Virus record (IMG/VR): IMGVR_UViG_3300000116_000135
Coordinates: 204-29,165 of that record
Direction: 5' to 3' (one strand)
Origin: a virus
DNA: 28,962 nucleotides
The notes under the pieces: model-generated
Told to the model about the DNA's origin: nothing
Seen by the model: only the letters and a program-made list of their open reading frames with translations
The model's database searches: none
Translations under genes and position numbers: made by a program
Part shown: piece after piece, positions 2,873-19,286 of the stretch
Position numbering within the stretch: the stretch's first letter is position 1
Layout of the letters: the number at the start of each line of letters is the position of its first letter

Positions 2873-4708
2873 ATGGCTTCGACTGATGGGAAGCTTTCAA
2901 CTCTTAAATTTATTCCGGGATTTCATAGAGAATCTACGCAATATGCAGAAGAGGGAAAGTGGTTTGATGGAAACAGAGTTCGCTTTCGTGAAGGAAAGCC
3001 AGAAAATTTACGTGGTTACAATAAAGCAGTAGCAACCCCATATTTTGGTATTGCACGTGACCTTCTTGTTTGGTCTGATAATGATACTATTAAGTTTATG
3101 TCTATAGGTACTGAAAAGTATTTATATGCAATTGAATCAAGTGAACTTTATGACATAACACCTTTTGTTTCTGCTATTGCTTTAACAAATGTTTTTAATA
3201 CTACTTTAAATTCCCCTTTAGTAAGTATAAGTATAACAAACCATGCTGTATCTGTCAATGATAGAATTTTTATTTCTTCCGCTACGTCTATTGGTAATAG
3301 TGGTATTCTTCTTAGTGGAGAATATTCTGTTGTAGGTGTAAGTGGTATTAATAATTTTACTATTTCTGCTACAACTTCTGCAGCAGCTACCTATACAGAT
3401 GGTGGTACAGCGGATTTAGAATTTATTTTACCTAATGAAAATACTGTACCTATTCAGGGTACTGGTTATGGTGCGGCTAGATACCTAGCAGGTGTGTCTA
3501 CTACTGGTGCAAGAGCATGGAACCGTCCTGCAGCAACAGGTGCTATTACATTTCAAAATTCTCAATGGACATTAGATAACTGGGGTGAAGATATGTTGGC
3601 CTGTCGTAGAGGCGGTAAGATATTTTACTTTGATGCAGATGCTTCGACAACTCCTACACGTGCAGTAGTAGTATCAACAGCACCTTCAGTTAATAATTAT
3701 ATTCGTGTGTCTCCTAATGATAGACACGTAATTGCATATGGCTCTAATGAGTTTGGTACAGGTACTTATAATCCAATGCTTGTACGTTGGTCAGACCAAG
3801 AAGATTATACTGATTGGACACCATCTATTTCATCTACATCAGGTGAAGTAATTCTTACAGGTGGTACAGAAATACGTGGGGCTATTCGTTCTCGTAATGG
3901 TATATATATTTGGACTGATAATGCACTGTACACTCAATCTTTTGTAGGTCCTCCATTTATTTTTAACTTTCAACAGGTAGGAACTAATTGTGGTTTGATT
4001 GCACCACACGCTGCAGTAGATGTAGATGGTATTGCATATTGGATGGGTGAAAATAATTTCTATGCTTTTGATGGTAGAGTAAGAAACTTACAATGTACTG
4101 TACGTAGATATCTTTATGATAGCTTTAATATGGTAAATAAAGATAAAGTATTTGCAGGTGTAAACTCAGAGTTTAATGAGATTGTTTGGTTCTATCCCTC
4201 TCAAGGTGAAGTTGAACCTAATTCATATATTGTTTATAATACAAAAGAAAATCACTGGACATTTGGTAGTTCATTCTATAGCACATTAGCAGACCATAGT
4301 GTTTATGATAATACTATTGCAACAGGTAAGGTGTCTGCAACTGATGATAACTATATTTGGAATAATGAACCACAGAATGTTTATACAGGTAATGGTAAAA
4401 TATTACCTTCTTATTTAGAATCAGGTGAGTTTGATATTGAAGATGGTAACAATATATTATTTATTGATAGGATTATTCCTGACTATACTATTACAAACAG
4501 TGGTGAAGTACAACTAACATTGTCTTTCCAAGAATATCCTAATGGACCTGCAATAACTAAAGGACCTTATACAGTACAACAATCAACAAAGAAGATTGAT
4601 TTGCGTGGTAGAGGAAGACAGGCAAAGATTATTGTGTCAGCTAGTTCAAATAGTTCTTGGCGTTGGGGTTCGGTACGTGCTAACATTCAACCGGATGGTA
4701 TGCGTTAA
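2873..4708 (+). CDS. Tail/head-completion protein (P22 gp10-like stabilisation family?)
   Basis: A 611-residue protein. The N-terminus (about residues 12-50) carries IPGFHRESTQYAEEGKWF followed by NRVRFREGKPENLRGY. This 'N-x-V-R-F-R-x-G-x-P' pattern is typical of the phage DNA-stabilisation or tail-hub proteins of podoviruses. An inserted beta domain (about 105-190) contains GEYSVVGVSGINNFTI. The central part (about 230-420) has propeller-like repeats with many Trp/Asp and 'DNALYTQSF' type strands; the end is a beta sandwich. It lies three bases after the previous stop and overlaps the next start by one base (TAATG), so it belongs to a coupled structural operon. I infer a role in closing the portal or forming the tail nozzle. 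The family assignment is moderate. Confidence 0.5.
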   Translation: MASTDGKLSTLKFIPGFHRESTQYAEEGKWFDGNRVRFREGKPENLRGYNKAVATPYFGIARDLLVWSDNDTIKFMSIGTEKYLYAIESSELYDITPFVSAIALTNVFNTTLNSPLVSISITNHAVSVNDRIFISSATSIGNSGILLSGEYSVVGVSGINNFTISATTSAAATYTDGGTADLEFILPNENTVPIQGTGYGAARYLAGVSTTGARAWNRPAATGAITFQNSQWTLDNWGEDMLACRRGGKIFYFDADASTTPTRAVVVSTAPSVNNYIRVSPNDRHVIAYGSNEFGTGTYNPMLVRWSDQEDYTDWTPSISSTSGEVILTGGTEIRGAIRSRNGIYIWTDNALYTQSFVGPPFIFNFQQVGTNCGLIAPHAAVDVDGIAYWMGENNFYAFDGRVRNLQCTVRRYLYDSFNMVNKDKVFAGVNSEFNEIVWFYPSQGEVEPNSYIVYNTKENHWTFGSSFYSTLADHSVYDNTIATGKVSATDDNYIWNNEPQNVYTGNGKILPSYLESGEFDIEDGNNILFIDRIIPDYTITNSGEVQLTLSFQEYPNGPAITKGPYTVQQSTKKIDLRGRGRQAKIIVSASSNSSWRWGSVRANIQPDGMR

Positions 4709-13265: not shown

Positions 13266-13652
13266 ATGTTAAACCTTCTAATAGGACCCATTGCGGAATT
13301 AGCAGGTACTTGGTTGAAAGGTTCTGTCGAAACATCAAAGGCAAAAACAGACGCAAAGGTAGCCCACGCCAAAGCTGAAGCTATTGTCATGCAGAAGAAG
13401 GCCACAGGTGAAATAGACTGGGACTTAAAGATGGCTGATGCTTCTGCATCCAGTTGGAAAGATGAATGGCTTACGTTAATTTTCTCAGCACCATTGATAC
13501 TTAGTTTCTGTGGGGATTGGGGCAGGACAATTGTAGCAGAGGGCTTTACAGCACTGTCTACTATGCCGGAGTGGTATCAGTATACACTAGGCGTCATTGT
13601 CGCTGCCAGCTTCGGCGTCCGTAGTGCTAGTAAATTCTTCGGTAAGAAGTAA
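13266..13652 (+). CDS. Three-helix holin-like protein (GTA holin family)
   Basis: A 128-residue membrane protein. The N-terminus (2-18, LNLLIGPIAELAGTWLKG) is hydrophobic or amphipathic. A charged helix (20-50) follows, then SSWKDEWLTLIFSAPLILSF (about 59-78) and a last membrane segment YQYTLGVIVAASFGVRS (about 103-119). This order, and the 'SWKDEWLTL...PLIL' block, match the 'holin of 3TMs' family first described in gene transfer agents of alphaproteobacteria. The ATG at 13266 has AGGAG seven bases upstream. With the gene at 12414 it gives two holin-like proteins in one cassette; they may be holin and antiholin. Its 3' end overlaps the opposite-strand small terminase gene by 66 bases. Confidence 0.65.
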   Translation: MLNLLIGPIAELAGTWLKGSVETSKAKTDAKVAHAKAEAIVMQKKATGEIDWDLKMADASASSWKDEWLTLIFSAPLILSFCGDWGRTIVAEGFTALSTMPEWYQYTLGVIVAASFGVRSASKFFGKK

Positions 13653-14108
13653 TTGTACTTCTTCTTCCTCTTGATATTCCTCTATATCTTCTTCAAACTT
13701 TTCGGGAAACGCTTCAGCAAGTAGTTCAAATACTTTCTCAAACCCTATCACCTGCATTGTATTTATAATCTCTGCTTCCAGAGTTTCAGATGTAGCATCC
13801 CCCTCATCTGAATTGTTACCCCGGACACGGCTCAGTAACTCAAGGGCTTTTAAAGCTACTGCTCCGTGTCCAGCGTTCCTAGCAGTTTCATACTGCTTCT
13901 CAATCTCTGAGATAACATCTACATCTGTGCTAATCTCATTGGTGAGTTCTTGGATTCTTTCTTGAATCCGTTCATCTTGTAGTAATCTGTACCCTTGATT
14001 GTGTGCAGATGCCTCGCTATATCCTGCTGCCACTGCAGCCCTCGTAGCATTACGGTGCAGGATATATGCTTGGCAGAACTTCTCTTGCTTTTCTTTAAGC
14101 TGCAACAT
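13587..14108 (-). CDS. terS: Terminase small subunit
   Basis: A 173-residue protein. The N-terminus LKEKQEKFCQAYILHRNATR followed by AAVAAGYS (about 4-32) is the helix-turn-helix signature of the Terminase_2 small-subunit family, which recognises the packaging site on phage DNA. A helical oligomerisation region follows (about 40-95). The C-terminal tail (about 135-173) is strikingly acidic, with runs of Glu/Asp, and may contact the large subunit or the portal. It starts at an ATG inside the 3' end of the tri-domain gene (14-base overlap). Unusually, it sits at the end of the minus-strand metabolic operon rather than beside a large subunit, and its 3' end runs 66 bases into the opposite-strand holin gene. 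Confidence 0.85.
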   Translation of the reverse strand: MLQLKEKQEKFCQAYILHRNATRAAVAAGYSEASAHNQGYRLLQDERIQERIQELTNEISTDVDVISEIEKQYETARNAGHGAVALKALELLSRVRGNNSDEGDATSETLEAEIINTMQVIGFEKVFELLAEAFPEKFEEDIEEYQEEEEVQLLLTEEFTSTTDAEAGSDNDA

Positions 14109-16410
14109 TCATTAACTCTTGGTAATACTTTTCTTGTCCACGCTTAGATTGTTTCCATACTGCTGCAGCTAATGTATCTTCTCCATAGAAGCAGATACCC
14201 ATATCCATTTGAACATCATCAAATAGTTTTTCACAGTCCTGTGCCATAGCCAGTAGTTCTCCTGTAGTCCAGAACTTAGTACCGCCTGTTTCTACTTGCA
14301 TATACTTAGGCCGGGTTTGTTCTGTATCTGTAGTTTCTTTTTTCATTTTTTCTGTTACTTTTCCAACAGAACAATCAAAGCCAAACAGTTCAAAGTTTCT
14401 AAAGCCTAATGTATGTGCAATTGCAATAGTACGCATAGCTGCACAAGTACCACCAGTGATGAGGGTAGACCCTTCTTCAATGCCTGTTGACTTATCTACT
14501 ACAATCTTATCTTTAATAGATAAATCACGCAAGGCATCTGAGTATGCTTGCCAACCTTTTATATTAGCACCCTTCTTAATAAGATACTTAGTAACTGAAG
14601 GGTCAGTCATAGAAGCAATAAGAAAGATAGTTTCTTTATCCACTTTCTTAAATAAATCTTTACGTTTAACACCATGTGTACTCACACCTTCGATAGGTCT
14701 AGGGTCTAAGATGACACAGGCAAAAGGTTGGATACCAGCTTCAATAAGTTTAGGATAGCTGTGCTTAACACAAAATACCTTGCTGTTAGTATTTTTAATA
14801 CGTTCTTTAAGAAGTTTAAAGTCTGTGGTGTTTCCTCCCGAAACAACAATGGCTGTCTCTGCATTAATTTTAGATGTCTTAATCCAGTCAAACTCTTTAA
14901 TAAGTTTTTTATTCTCCAACACATTATTAATAATCTCTTCCTTTGGTCTTGAATCTTTTGGTGTAACAACAATAGGTACACGTGTAAGTTCCTCTGGAAG
15001 TTTCTCCAAGTCTTTCTTCATAGAGACAAAGCATAGATGTGTTACACCACCGTCTTTTACTCCATCTGTAGATGGTAGTACAATCTTAGCAAAGGCTACT
15101 ATTTCTTTTATTAATACATTTACACCATCATTCTCAGGCATACGTCCTTGTTCATCCTTGGTAAAGTAATCATCGAATACAATGGCAGGAATGTGACGTA
15201 GGTTTTCAAAGTCTGACTTAACTGTTTCATATGAATGACCACCATCAATGTAAGCAAAGTCTGCCTCATTTATATCACTAGCTAGTGGTAATGTTTTCTT
15301 TGTGTCCCCCTTATGTAGTTCAAAGGTAAATGATTTACCTGACTTATGCATAACCTGTTGGAACTCAGACAACCTAAACTCTACAGCCTCTAACATATTA
15401 TGAGGCTTTGAGTTCAATTCAATGTGGTCTAGTTCTTCTGTAGCTTCTTCAAACAAATCAAAGCCAATGTAATGTACCTTATCTGTATGTTTAAATGCAG
15501 CCAAAGACATTTCAATTGCTCGTCCACCGTTCCAAGTACCTGTCTCAACAATAGTACTAGGCTTGTAGTGTTCTACAATCTTAGCCAACTGCTTGTAACG
15601 CTTTGGACCTGTAACATCAGGGGTTACTTTTGTCTTACTAAGTTCTTTCTTACGCTGTCCTTTGAAATGTTCAAAGTATTCAGACAAAGGAGACTGAGCA
15701 AATGCTGCTAGTCCTTTTACATTAGGAGAAAGGTTGTGTACCTCCATACCATGTGCTTTGTAGATATTAAGTAGGCGTTCAAAGATAAATCCATCATGCC
15801 ACTCACGATAAGCAACTACTTCACCAATAGTGTAAGCACCTCTAAGGTCAGCAAGGAGACTGCAAGTATTATGAACGCCCAAGTTAAAGCCCATGAAACT
15901 TGTTTCGCTATAGTCTGCATCTGTTCTTCCTAAGTGTACTAAGTCTGATGCATCTGGCAACCAGCTTTCTAATTGTTTAACATCAAGTCGTTTGGTTGCA
16001 ACGGTATCTGCGTCTAACCAAATCATCCAGTTATTTTCAGGTGGTTCTATACCTGCGGTAATATACTTATCATCTACATCCATCATTTCAAATGCAAGGT
16101 CAGTCATTGCATATACTTTATGACACCACTTGATTGCATCAAGCCGCCAATTGTACGCCATCTTACCGCCTTCAGTACCATCATGGAACTTCATACGCTC
16201 ACGGTATTCAAGCATCTCTGTTACATCGTTTAGATTCCTATAGCTAATAGTATCGCAAGTAGGGGGAGATAAATCCTCAAGAACGAAATCGTGATAATAC
16301 GCAATGAGTTTAAAATGTTCTGGGTTCCACTTCTCTTTAATACTTTCAAGCATATGCTTCGCATAACTGTGATAACCTTCCTCACTGAATGATGTTACAA
16401 ATGTATACAT
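14095..16410 (-). CDS. Tri-domain glycosyltransferase - methyltransferase - DUF115-like fusion
   Basis: A 771-residue protein. The ATG at 16410 shares a base with the upstream TAA; a longer in-frame start at 16467 is rejected because it lies inside the previous gene. Domain 1 (about 1-255) looks like a nucleotide-sugar glycosyltransferase, with a DxD metal/sugar motif (WLDADTV, D133 and D135) and FMGFNLGVHN (172-181). Domain 2 (about 265-465) looks like a class I methyltransferase: VETGTWNGGRA (288-298, SAM loop), FAYIDGGHSYETVKSDF (385-401) and FDDYF (412-416). Domain 3 (about 515-740) resembles DUF115/MptE/Maf proteins: AIVVSGGNT (520-528), GIQPFACVILDPRP (559-572) and TLGFRNFELFGFDCS (667-681). 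DUF115-type proteins include glycosyltransferases that modify flagellins. I infer a multi-step glycan-modifying enzyme; the substrate is unknown. Confidence 0.75.
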   Translation of the reverse strand: MYTFVTSFSEEGYHSYAKHMLESIKEKWNPEHFKLIAYYHDFVLEDLSPPTCDTISYRNLNDVTEMLEYRERMKFHDGTEGGKMAYNWRLDAIKWCHKVYAMTDLAFEMMDVDDKYITAGIEPPENNWMIWLDADTVATKRLDVKQLESWLPDASDLVHLGRTDADYSETSFMGFNLGVHNTCSLLADLRGAYTIGEVVAYREWHDGFIFERLLNIYKAHGMEVHNLSPNVKGLAAFAQSPLSEYFEHFKGQRKKELSKTKVTPDVTGPKRYKQLAKIVEHYKPSTIVETGTWNGGRAIEMSLAAFKHTDKVHYIGFDLFEEATEELDHIELNSKPHNMLEAVEFRLSEFQQVMHKSGKSFTFELHKGDTKKTLPLASDINEADFAYIDGGHSYETVKSDFENLRHIPAIVFDDYFTKDEQGRMPENDGVNVLIKEIVAFAKIVLPSTDGVKDGGVTHLCFVSMKKDLEKLPEELTRVPIVVTPKDSRPKEEIINNVLENKKLIKEFDWIKTSKINAETAIVVSGGNTTDFKLLKERIKNTNSKVFCVKHSYPKLIEAGIQPFACVILDPRPIEGVSTHGVKRKDLFKKVDKETIFLIASMTDPSVTKYLIKKGANIKGWQAYSDALRDLSIKDKIVVDKSTGIEEGSTLITGGTCAAMRTIAIAHTLGFRNFELFGFDCSVGKVTEKMKKETTDTEQTRPKYMQVETGGTKFWTTGELLAMAQDCEKLFDDVQMDMGICFYGEDTLAAAVWKQSKRGQEKYYQELMNVAA

Positions 16411-17186
16411 TAAAAAACCTCTCTTAAAATCTTGTCCATATAAATGGTACTGTGTAATGCTTGCCACTCACCAGCATAGCTGGCATCTGATGTTCGCTTT
16501 GGTTCCCAATCACTAAACCAAGGACCACCTGTTGTAAAGTGTACGTTCTTAGGTTTAATAATATCAGATGACCAACCATCCAACCAGTTCCATTCTTCGT
16601 TTATCCCACCAATGTCTTCATCCTTCAACCATTCAAAGCCGTGAAGCCATCTACCAGTTTTTACATTCACATCATCCACTGTTAGATTAAGGTTAGCAGG
16701 ATGTGAACAATTCCAAAGGACAAAACTAGACCAGTTCTTACGATTGTATTGTTGTTGTACCTGTCCATCCATCTTCACCTGTGCTGTTGGGTTGTAATTA
16801 TGTTTGACACATTGGATTGCGTACTCTTCGTTTCGTGTGTATTCTTCAAAGAACTCTTCGATGTCGGTACGCAAGAACATATCCGAATCCATAAATAAAG
16901 CCCAGCCATCGTACTGATTAAGGGCAGGTATGAGAAAACGTGTAAAAGTAAAGTCAGTACTGAAAGGTCTTCCATCGAACTCGTCTATCTTTACCCGCTT
17001 GTCATGCTGGACATCAATCCTAGCACTGCGGCGATACAAACCTGCTCTACGTAAGCCTGATTGTACAAGAGGAATGATGTCATATTTTGTGTTGTACTTA
17101 ATAATTGATTGACGTAATACTTCATATGCCTCTTCCTCTCTTTGGTCAAAGCCAATATATATTACTGGTCGCTTTGTTGTGAACAT
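16410..17186 (-). CDS. Glycosyltransferase, GT8-like fold
   Basis: A 258-residue protein that opens VIYIGFDQREEEAYEVLRQS (8-27), the N-terminal block of a glycosyltransferase family often seen in marine phages. A DxD motif (FMDSDMF, D100 and D102) would bind a divalent metal and the nucleotide sugar. FSTDFTFTRFLIP (75-87) and HFTTGGPW near residue 217 are further family-like blocks, the His probably completing the metal site. No signal peptide or membrane segment is seen, so it should act in the cytoplasm. Its ribosome-binding site AGGAG lies inside a long hairpin (17193-17238). It is coupled by TAATG to the tri-domain gene downstream, so the two probably act on the same substrate. Confidence 0.75.
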   Translation of the reverse strand: MFTTKRPVIYIGFDQREEEAYEVLRQSIIKYNTKYDIIPLVQSGLRRAGLYRRSARIDVQHDKRVKIDEFDGRPFSTDFTFTRFLIPALNQYDGWALFMDSDMFLRTDIEEFFEEYTRNEEYAIQCVKHNYNPTAQVKMDGQVQQQYNRKNWSSFVLWNCSHPANLNLTVDDVNVKTGRWLHGFEWLKDEDIGGINEEWNWLDGWSSDIIKPKNVHFTTGGPWFSDWEPKRTSDASYAGEWQALHSTIYMDKILREVF

Positions 17187-17192
17187 AAAAAA

Positions 17193-17238
17193 CTCCTGAT
17201 AATTAATTCAGACTATATTTTAAATCAATTATCAGGAG
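17193..17238 (-). promoter_or_regulatory. Ribosome-site-masking hairpin before glycosyltransferase genes
   Basis: On the minus strand CTCCTGATAATT (17238-17227) pairs perfectly with AATTATCAGGAG (17204-17193). In RNA the stem extends inward by six more pairs, two of them G-U, giving an 18-bp stem and a 10-base loop. The G-U pairs work only in minus-strand RNA. The 3' arm contains the AGGAG ribosome-binding site of the glycosyltransferase, six bases before ATG, and those six bases are all T. Read-through RNA from the reductase would hide the site, and the stem plus T6 could also act as an intrinsic terminator. Confidence 0.7.
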
Positions 17239-17245
17239 AAGTCAA
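17217..17245 (-). promoter_or_regulatory. Sigma70-type promoter inside the hairpin region
   Basis: On the minus strand, -35 TTGACT (17245-17240, 5 of 6) is followed by a 17-base spacer and -10 TAAAAT (17222-17217, 5 of 6). Initiation would fall near 17208-17210, in the loop or early 3' side of the hairpin, so transcripts from this promoter lack the arm that masks AGGAG. It would drive the two glycosyltransferase-type genes and probably the small terminase. Confidence 0.6.
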
Positions 17246-17253
17246 GTGTTTTT

Positions 17254-19221
17254 TTATGCTGCTGCTATGTCTACAATCTCACACACCCCTGCGGTACAAG
17301 CTAACTCTCTACCGCCTGATGTTGTGTCTTCTTTCTCAAAGTCTTGTAGCTTATTCCAATCAACATTCTTAGGCATCTTCTTAACCCACTCTTTGTAGGT
17401 GTCAGCATCAATGTCCTGATAGGGTGCTTGCTGGTATGTATGTTCGCTGAATGGTAAGAAGCTGATGCCACTCACCTCATCGAAATGTTTATACACCCAA
17501 GCACCTACATCTAGCCATTCCGATTCCTTCACTGAAATTGTTACGCTAGGCTTATGTTCGCACCAATGTCGTTGATATGTAAGCCACAACTCTAGCTGCT
17601 CAATGGCTGTCATACCTGTACGTGTTATTGCATTAGCAGGTGACTTCATAGGGAAGCTGAATACTGTTGTGCTGTCAGGCTTCGTTACATCAGGTTCTGA
17701 AGGAATACCTTGAGACATGAGGAACTGTGTTAGTGGGTCTTTGTTATCACCACGTACAGTACGAATGTAGTATGGGTTATGCCGTGCATGAATACCACTG
17801 GCTGCATCAGTAAGCTGAGACACAGTACCACTAGGCTTCACACAAGTAACAGCTACAGACTGTTGGATACCCAACTGCTTAGACATATCCTTGTTAGATT
17901 CAACAGATATAGAACGTAATAATTCAAGTATAGTTTCTAACTTACCACCTGCATTTGCAGTCAGTTCATTGTCCATAATACCTGTAAGTGAGACACCAAG
18001 TAGACGCTCTTCCTCTGTGTTCTTCTTCCAGATATTACGAATGTATTTAAAGTTAGTCAGTGTAGCTTGGAATGTACCAAGGATTGTAGCAAGGCGTACC
18101 TTTTCTTTTAGTGTTTCTGTTGTGTCATTCTCACGCACTACTACCTCTGACAAATTACAGAACTGGTATGGGCGTAAAATAATCTCACTGCAAGGGTTAC
18201 AACCGTAGTCATACTCCAATGGAAGTTTAGTCAGTGGGTGCTTCAATCCTGTATAAATATCGCGTCTACCATTCTTAGCTGCTTGTTTCTTAGCAGCCTC
18301 ACGATTAAAGATACCACGTTCACCTGACTTGCTTTCATATAGAGATGTCCACTCACGCATGAATGTACCCATCTCAGGTTTATATTTGTAGGCAACAGAG
18401 TTATTAGCTAAAGCACGTTGTCCTTCGTTTTCCCACCACTTACCTGACTTAGCATGAGCCATCTGGTCATCATTAAGATTAGACAGGCTGATAAGGGCTG
18501 AACGTCTTACACCACCTACAACTACAACCTCACCTATCTTACACATGATATCGTGGCATTCGATTGGGTAGAGCCTACGTCCTGCAGCACCCTTGAATTT
18601 CTCAATACAAAAGTCAAATAATTCAATAAGTGGTTGTGGTCCAGAGGCTCTACCACCAAAGGTCTTTAGCCTTGCACCTGCAGGGCGTACTTCGCTGACA
18701 TCGAATTTAGGAATTTGTCCAGTGTAAAGCATAGCAATCAATTCCTTCAATGACTTAGCCCATCCGGGGCGGCTGTCACCTACCTTGATTATTGTTTCTG
18801 TATTATGGAATGATTCATTAATAAAAGGAAGACACTCGACTGCACTTCGCTCAACAGAAAATCCAACACCTGTTCCACACATCAAGATGTACATTGTCTC
18901 ATCGAATGCACGTGGGTTATCAACTGGTACATAAGAACAGTTGTATCCACCCACATGGCAACGGTCAAGGGCTGGTCCACTGGTCATCAATGCCCTCATA
19001 GAAGGCATGATGTTTAGGGAAAGCACAGCTTCCTCAAGCTGCTTACGCAGCCCCTCGTCAAGAGAATAGCTATGCTTTTTCTTCAGATGGTCAGACATAT
19101 AATCAAAGTATCTGCCAACTGTTTCTGTCCAAGTCTCACGCCGTTGCTCGTCTTCTTTCCAACGTGCATAGCGGGACAAGGCAATAAAATTCTGGTAATC
19201 TGTAGGTAAAAAATTGTTCAT
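17254..19221 (-). CDS. nrdJ: Class II (B12-dependent) ribonucleotide reductase, monomeric
   Basis: A 655-residue enzyme that converts ribonucleotides to deoxyribonucleotides using adenosylcobalamin, feeding phage DNA synthesis. The key residues of the monomeric Lactobacillus-type enzyme are present: the thiyl-radical Cys C344 and its partner E346 in NPCSEIIL, the redox pair C95 (GYNCSY) and C355 (FCNLSEV), and a C-terminal shuttle pair C642/C647 (CTAGVC) with the usual spacing of five. GGVRRSALISLSNL (236-249) is another family block. The ATG at 19221 is chosen because AAAGGG lies just upstream; longer starts at 19236 and 19269 have no ribosome-binding site. No radical-generating small subunit is needed, and none is present. 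It depends on host cobalamin. Confidence 0.92.
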   Translation of the reverse strand: MNNFLPTDYQNFIALSRYARWKEDEQRRETWTETVGRYFDYMSDHLKKKHSYSLDEGLRKQLEEAVLSLNIMPSMRALMTSGPALDRCHVGGYNCSYVPVDNPRAFDETMYILMCGTGVGFSVERSAVECLPFINESFHNTETIIKVGDSRPGWAKSLKELIAMLYTGQIPKFDVSEVRPAGARLKTFGGRASGPQPLIELFDFCIEKFKGAAGRRLYPIECHDIMCKIGEVVVVGGVRRSALISLSNLNDDQMAHAKSGKWWENEGQRALANNSVAYKYKPEMGTFMREWTSLYESKSGERGIFNREAAKKQAAKNGRRDIYTGLKHPLTKLPLEYDYGCNPCSEIILRPYQFCNLSEVVVRENDTTETLKEKVRLATILGTFQATLTNFKYIRNIWKKNTEEERLLGVSLTGIMDNELTANAGGKLETILELLRSISVESNKDMSKQLGIQQSVAVTCVKPSGTVSQLTDAASGIHARHNPYYIRTVRGDNKDPLTQFLMSQGIPSEPDVTKPDSTTVFSFPMKSPANAITRTGMTAIEQLELWLTYQRHWCEHKPSVTISVKESEWLDVGAWVYKHFDEVSGISFLPFSEHTYQQAPYQDIDADTYKEWVKKMPKNVDWNKLQDFEKEDTTSGGRELACTAGVCEIVDIAAA

Positions 19222-19224
19222 AAA

Positions 19225-19286
19225 TAGCCCTTTCATTTTCAAGCGAACAAGAGAATAAGTGTAACACAAATGGGCTACAAGTACAA
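19225..19286 (-). promoter_or_regulatory. Possible promoter and ribosome-site hairpin before reductase
   Basis: The 69-base gap before the reductase holds two weak overlapping promoter matches on the minus strand: TTGTAC (19286-19281), 17 bases, TACACT (19263-19258); and TTGTAG (19280-19275), 17 bases, TATTCT (19257-19252). TAGCCC (19277-19272) can pair with GGGCTA (19230-19225), and three more A-T pairs form after a one-base bulge. The 3' arm is the AAAGGG ribosome-binding site. The layout repeats that of the glycosyltransferase gap, but every element is weaker. Confidence 0.3.

Follow-up and report, generated by a model that had tools for sequence, protein, structure and literature searches.

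The question raised by this locus is which RNA expresses the glycosyltransferase gene that follows the ribonucleotide reductase (RNR) gene: RNA that reads through from RNR, or RNA that begins in the 67-base gap between the two genes. According to the original prediction, the gap contains a promoter built into a hairpin that hides the ribosome site, and the downstream genes are silent on read-through RNA and expressed only from the local promoter.

Genomic context

The window, by which we mean the whole stretch of DNA analyzed, comprises 28,962 nt of IMGVR_UViG_3300000116_000135 (positions 204-29,165; the virus record has 29,165 bases). Its RNR shares 73.8% DNA identity with the RNR of Puniceispirillum phage HMO-2011, and the nearest DNA polymerases to its own belong to the pelagiphages HTVC103P, HTVC104P and HTVC115P (46-47% identity). 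Virion-type genes occupy the plus strand as far as position 13652, and replication genes lie on the minus strand together with RNR and the genes for the glycosyltransferase, a methyltransferase/MptE-like protein and the terminase small subunit (TerS). The genes at issue are as follows:

17254..19269, minus strand: B12-dependent RNR, the upstream gene (phrog_367, E 2e-191; Pfam RNR domains)
16410..17186, minus strand: GT-A-fold glycosyltransferase (GT8-like), operon gene 1 (phrog_28018; model; PDB matches)
14095..16467, minus strand: Methyltransf_24 plus MptE-like/Maf (PseD-like) protein, operon gene 2 (domain matches)
13587..14108, minus strand: TerS, operon gene 3 (Pfam Terminase_2, 1.8e-17; phrog_51; synteny in relatives)

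The product of operon gene 1 is confidently modelled with a GT-A fold that resembles those of GT8 enzymes; its predicted structure has a pLDDT of 84 and matches WbbM, GlyE, LgtC and glycogenin in the PDB. The D-x-D motif is invariant, and phage homologues are annotated as glycosyltransferases. The product of operon gene 2, which probably functions in sugar transfer or modification, combines a Methyltransf_24 domain with an MptE-like one that weakly matches the flagellin modification protein PseD. The name "glycan genes", used originally, is right for gene 1 and likely for gene 2, but it omits TerS, the last gene, which overlaps the end of gene 2. The glycosyltransferase-methyltransferase-TerS order is kept in nearly all relatives with contigs reaching that far. 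TerS also overlaps a 128-aa gene on the plus strand (13266-13652) tail to tail by 66 bases (13587-13652), and an overlap of ~66 bases was found again in many relatives.

A predicted promoter in the gap and its conservation

Read along the minus strand, the gap consists of an A-tract, TTGACT, 17 nt, TAAAAT, a leader with AGGAG, T6 and then the ATG, and the RNR stop codon TAA (17256-17254) precedes the A-tract. Its features, all on the minus strand, are listed below:

17247..17255, minus strand: A-rich tract 5' of the -35 hexamer (sequence; putative function)
17240..17245, minus strand: -35 hexamer TTGACT (sequence, consensus match, relatives)
17217..17222, minus strand: -10 hexamer TAAAAT, TAGAAT in relative L003 (17-nt spacing from the -35)
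17208..17210, minus strand: predicted start of transcription (from promoter geometry, 6-8 nt beyond the -10)
17221..17238, minus strand: 5' arm of the hairpin, the masking one, which lies largely in the promoter spacer (folding)
17211..17220, minus strand: hairpin loop, 10 nt (folding)
17193..17210, minus strand: 3' arm of the hairpin, holding the Shine-Dalgarno (SD) sequence AGGAG at 17197-17193 (sequence, folding)
17187..17192, minus strand: T6 tract between the hairpin and the ATG at 17186 (sequence; terminator score)

The proposed promoter, TTGACT-17-TAAAAT, is indeed present at 17245-17217 and agrees with the consensus at 10 of 12 positions. On its own such a match is commonplace over kilobases, where 13 matches of at least 9/12 were found and 18.8 were expected, and rare within the gap, where the expectation for a match of this kind in 70 nt is 0.03. 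Another promoter-like match, at 17183, lies inside the glycosyltransferase gene and was regarded as chance.

We then scanned the region between RNR and the glycosyltransferase gene in 34 representative relatives, which are mutually related and not independent. A match to TTGACA/TATAAT of at least 10/12 with a spacing of exactly 17 was present in all 34, and many matched at 12/12. In total 37 matches were observed in the representatives, compared with about 4.6 expected from dinucleotide shuffles. The promoter lies 29-68 nt ahead of the glycosyltransferase ATG in 22 representatives, 258-284 nt before it and ahead of one small gene in nine, and further off in three. Its spacers and leaders differ widely from lineage to lineage, and the window promoter accordingly has the marks of a sigma70-type promoter, with -35 and -10 hexamers 16-18 nt apart that are conserved amid variable flanks. 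From these comparisons, the conserved feature of the locus is the predicted dedicated operon promoter, not the hairpin. Since an A-tract precedes the promoter in most relatives, even where there is no masking hairpin, the one in the window looks like a part of the promoter (UP-like); it is also predicted to be able to pair with U6-AUG in the long RNA defined below.

Other sources added little. A DNA search with the junction of the RNR end and the promoter returned mostly unrelated contigs, together with relatives L202, L260, L210 and L183. The HMO-2011 isolate, in which other genes follow RNR, is not informative for this locus, and the literature that we found on this phage group mentions no promoter of it.

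Several leaders among the relatives have features of their own. In L159, L161, L183 and L210 the leader opens with a 10-12-bp hairpin at, or at most 3 nt from, the predicted +1, and these hairpins therefore support the rule by which the start site was placed. In L161 the element lies ~230-165 nt before the glycosyltransferase start (3995), with a hairpin such as GGUAGCUGGCUG...CAGCUACC. The large loop of the leader hairpin is pyrimidine-rich, and in three of these four relatives it contains an anti-SD-like CCUCCUUUCCUCUCUC. It looks like a conserved 5' leader element preceding a small conserved gene. In L005 (2155-2184), L052 and L131, the promoter match is only 29-35 nt before the glycosyltransferase ATG. 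RNA from such a promoter, if real, would be leaderless, with its first base at or within the start codon, and an AAGGAG within the promoter spacer would be usable by read-through RNA only, the reverse of the logic in the window.

A hairpin that would mask the ribosome site

Folding bears out the inverted repeat noticed earlier, with AGGAG in its 3' arm. Positions 17238-17193 form an 18-bp hairpin with four G-C and two G-U pairs and a 10-nt loop. Its arms, CTCCTGATAATTGATTTA with TGAATTAATTATCAGGAG, give 12 Watson-Crick pairs from the base, followed by six pairs that include the two G-U; the uninterrupted 12-bp core holds the four G-C pairs. The stem is the longest perfect one in the window when both strands are scanned and G-U is allowed. 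The RNA of the gap has a minimum free energy of -30.9 kcal/mol, compared with -13.5 +/- 2.95 for shuffles (z -5.9, 0/200). The -10 hexamer reaches from the upper end of the 5' arm into the loop, and the predicted start at ~17210-17208 coincides with the beginning of the 3' arm, which agrees with the proposal that transcription begins past the masking arm. No Rfam covariance model matched at its gathering score anywhere in the window.

Masking was expressed as the opening energy, the cost of unpairing positions -14 to +3 around the AUG. We compared a long RNA, with its 5' end 60 nt above the predicted start, with a short RNA that begins at the predicted start. Opening costs 21.7 kcal/mol in the long RNA, with the 5' arm, and 3.6 kcal/mol in the short one, without it (about 0.5-4 near the predicted start). 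When the upstream 60 nt were shuffled, the opening energy was 7.1 +/- 2.3 (window z 6.4, 0/300). The glycosyltransferase start ranks first in masking strength among 39 gene starts in the window, and only 1 of 3846 background positions was as strongly masked. The runner-up, at 14.4 kcal/mol, is the plus-strand gene start at window position 229.

The effect depends sharply on the position of the 5' end. Opening costs 13-23 kcal/mol when the 5' end lies at or upstream of 17236 (13.1 at 17236), and 0.5-5.5 kcal/mol when it lies at or downstream of 17232 (3.2 at 17232). The mask therefore hinges on CTCCTG at 17238-17233, which sits between the -35 and the -10 and cannot occur in RNA begun at this promoter. 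In the long RNA the unpaired probability of the AUG and the SD is 0.00-0.01. For the SD, the value of 0.01 compares with a shuffle mean of 0.23, and 16 of 200 shuffles were equally low, which is not significant by this measure. The exceptional aspect of the masking is thus its energy, or strength, and not the probability of SD pairing.

Masking in relatives

A DNA search for the exact sequence of the hairpin returned only the near-identical L003, L004 and L021, which are one virus (0-1 mismatches). Their stem is unchanged, and a single change in the loop, A to G, lengthens the predicted stem. Around the ATG (-180 to +240) they diverge from the window by ~1-2%, and identity over the wider region is 87%. 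We rejected this conservation as evidence of selection, given a single virus and an almost identical local block, and for the same reason the comparison for compensatory changes that was proposed originally is uninformative in these nearest relatives. In L004 the ~1-2% divergent block covers window positions 17191-17430 within a region averaging 13% divergence, which suggests a mosaic or recently exchanged segment at the RNR end and glycosyltransferase start.

A second lineage, the clade of L106, L108 and L158, has a similar design. It shares 82% identity with the window in RNR and about 71% in the glycosyltransferase gene, which abuts RNR, and its promoter, TTGACA-17-TATAAT, is in the same place. 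A hairpin (AUAUAAUAUACCUUU/GAAGGUGUGUUAUGU) that is unrelated in sequence to that of the window hides the SD and AUG, and its 5' arm consists of the -10 region and the first few transcribed bases. Opening costs 15.6 versus 5.3 (z 4.5 in L106/L158; 1/300 in L106), and L108 gave z 3.0 (5/300); both fractions are uncorrected, and the clade is a single positive in tests of about a dozen lineages. The L106 and L108 stems differ by two substitutions, both of which preserve pairing (C-G to U-G and U-G to U-A).

Strong masking was found only in these two lineages, in both of which the glycosyltransferase gene abuts RNR. In the glycosyltransferase tree the two masked clades are placed apart within one supported group of 12, and the mask therefore either arose twice or arose once and was then lost and rebuilt. 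Weak masking (z 2.3-2.9) was seen in L111/L113/L114, L148 and L140. Masking is absent (z -0.9 to +1.1) from the majority of relatives that share the promoter, among them L119, L122, L124/L125, L128 and L142-L145; nor is there a mask in L210, where the promoter abuts RNR and precedes a small gene. Because most relatives that have the promoter do without it, masking is dispensable in the group, and we rejected it as a general rule for this gene family. The proposed silencing of read-through RNA is supported by the computed masking in this phage but not as a rule for its relatives.

Possible terminator property of the hairpin

The suggestion that T6 might also terminate read-through agrees with the structure, in which U6 directly follows the 18-bp stem. 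We scored it with the d'Aubenton Carafa terminator score, d = 18.16 nT + 96.59 Y - 116.87. On the minus strand the score is +12.9 in the window and +24.2 in L003; on the plus strand it is -81 and two mismatches break the fold, and a plus-strand terminator or hairpin was ruled out. A simple terminator scan with a loop limit of 8 nt misses this hairpin and its 10-nt loop. It had also been argued that the two G-U pairs, which would be mismatches in plus-strand RNA, indicate function in this transcript. The pairs are real, but the argument is weak alone, as both would fall on this strand by chance in 25% of cases; the strand preference is better supported by T6, because of the difference in d between the strands. 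It is plausible, based on this score, that the hairpin serves both as a translation lock and as an intrinsic terminator for RNR transcription.

The hairpin might then be merely the intrinsic terminator of the RNR operon, with a 3' arm that doubles as a ribosome site and masking as a non-regulatory by-product. The positive d-scores, found only in the sense of RNR transcription, would fit this explanation, as would the distant relative L013. There, the stretch from an Hsp20-like gene to the homologous glycosyltransferase gene (~3920-3983) contains a GGTTAGC...GCTAACC hairpin, then C and T6 and, just downstream, the SD (GGAG); the hairpin is terminator-like but its d-score is -8.9. Against a terminator alone, no U tract follows the hairpins of L106, L108 and L158 (d -45 to -53), which do hide the SD and AUG, so that masking there needs no terminator, and at least in L106 and L108 the predicted hairpin is a lock only. 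In addition, the length and A/T-richness of the stem in the window and the 10-nt size of its loop are not typical of strong terminators, and most other RNR-glycosyltransferase junctions hold intervening genes. We consider this explanation rather unlikely.

Proposed function

Taken together, we think it fairly likely that the gap is an insulated operon boundary, at which a local promoter drives the operon and read-through RNA is either stopped or untranslatable. This reading draws on the elements and their geometry, the length dependence of masking, the recurrence of the promoter and the second similar lineage, all of which were computed. From the sequence, we infer that the promoter is active and where it starts transcription, that masking and termination occur in vivo, and what purpose the arrangement has. 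A strong sigma70-type promoter just after RNR would drive the glycosyltransferase-methyltransferase/Maf-TerS operon, and its spacer would have been co-opted to pair with the ribosome site. Read-through RNA from the RNR operon, with both arms present, would fold into the 18-bp hairpin and either terminate in U6 or continue with AGGAG and AUG hidden. RNA begun at ~17210 would have no 5' arm and would be translatable. Expression would then follow the local promoter and would not depend on the replication operon upstream. The masking would be redundant if termination is efficient.

A temporal switch resembling that of T4 gene e was also considered, in which early read-through RNA would be silent and the local promoter would act late to supply virion-modifying and packaging proteins. 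The operon does end in the packaging gene TerS, and the geometry is like that of gene e, whose late RNA is missing the inhibitory structure's 5' half (PMC3014915). However, the promoters are near-consensus sigma70 promoters (up to 12/12 in relatives) that host polymerase should use at once, a non-systematic look identified no phage sigma factor or promoter switch, and the mask is missing from most relatives with the same operon. Late timing is not supported, because a promoter of the sigma70 type may work as soon as the phage enters, and we regard such a switch as improbable. That the pairing is a functionless accident of an A/T-rich promoter beside an A/T-rich leader would fit the many unmasked relatives and the lack of informative covariation in the window's clade, but it is very improbable given the two energy z-scores (6.4 and -5.9), the first rank among 39 gene starts, the 12-bp Watson-Crick core with its four G-C pairs and the similar arrangement in a second lineage.

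A more speculative reading, which we consider rather unlikely, is that the 67 bases are three elements in one: a terminator for the upstream operon, a translation lock against any read-through and the promoter of the next operon. On this reading, two or more separate origins of such a lock would have occurred in this abundant marine phage group, always on the promoter that all its members retain, once intervening genes had been lost and the operon abutted RNR.

Comparison with known systems

Intrinsic terminators (stem plus U tract) are placed before the promoter of the next operon at phage operon boundaries. The gap differs from such ordinary boundaries in that terminator, promoter and ribosome site share the same 67 bases. 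A literature search for a phage terminator that overlaps both a promoter and an SD gave nothing relevant. In IS10 and IS50, the extra 5' arm of outside transcripts folds over the transposase ribosome site, while RNA from the inner sigma70 promoter is translatable; the purpose of this read-through protection is insulation, not timing. The gap would likewise serve insulation, but it is a phage operon boundary rather than a transposon end and has no terminal-repeat function.

The comparison made originally was with T4. In T4, ribosome-site hairpins of genes e, soc, 49 and I-TevI are inhibitory, and a late promoter lies in the region of the 5' arm (PMC3014915). Long upstream RNA hides the SD and AUG, and late-promoter RNA, which does not carry the 5' strand, gets translated (PMC3014915). 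The likeness holds for the length-dependent geometry of masking: the window promoter lies within the 5'-arm region of the hairpin, the SD and AUG are predicted to be paired in the long RNA, and the predicted promoter RNA does not contain the 5' arm. It does not extend to the promoter, which in gene e is a late (gp55) promoter, TATAAATA, and in the window is TTGACT-17-TAAAAT, of the sigma70 type. The window hairpin differs also in scoring as a terminator, and the phage that has it is a small marine one, related to HMO-2011 and the pelagiphages, in which it precedes a glycosyltransferase/methyltransferase/TerS operon. If our reading is correct, the logic of gene e would extend to a small marine phage that apparently relies on a host-type promoter, and it would serve insulation instead of timing. 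More broadly, the near-universal predicted promoter provides a transcription landmark for this uncultured marine phage group, separating the replication and RNR genes from the glycosyltransferase-methyltransferase-TerS operon.
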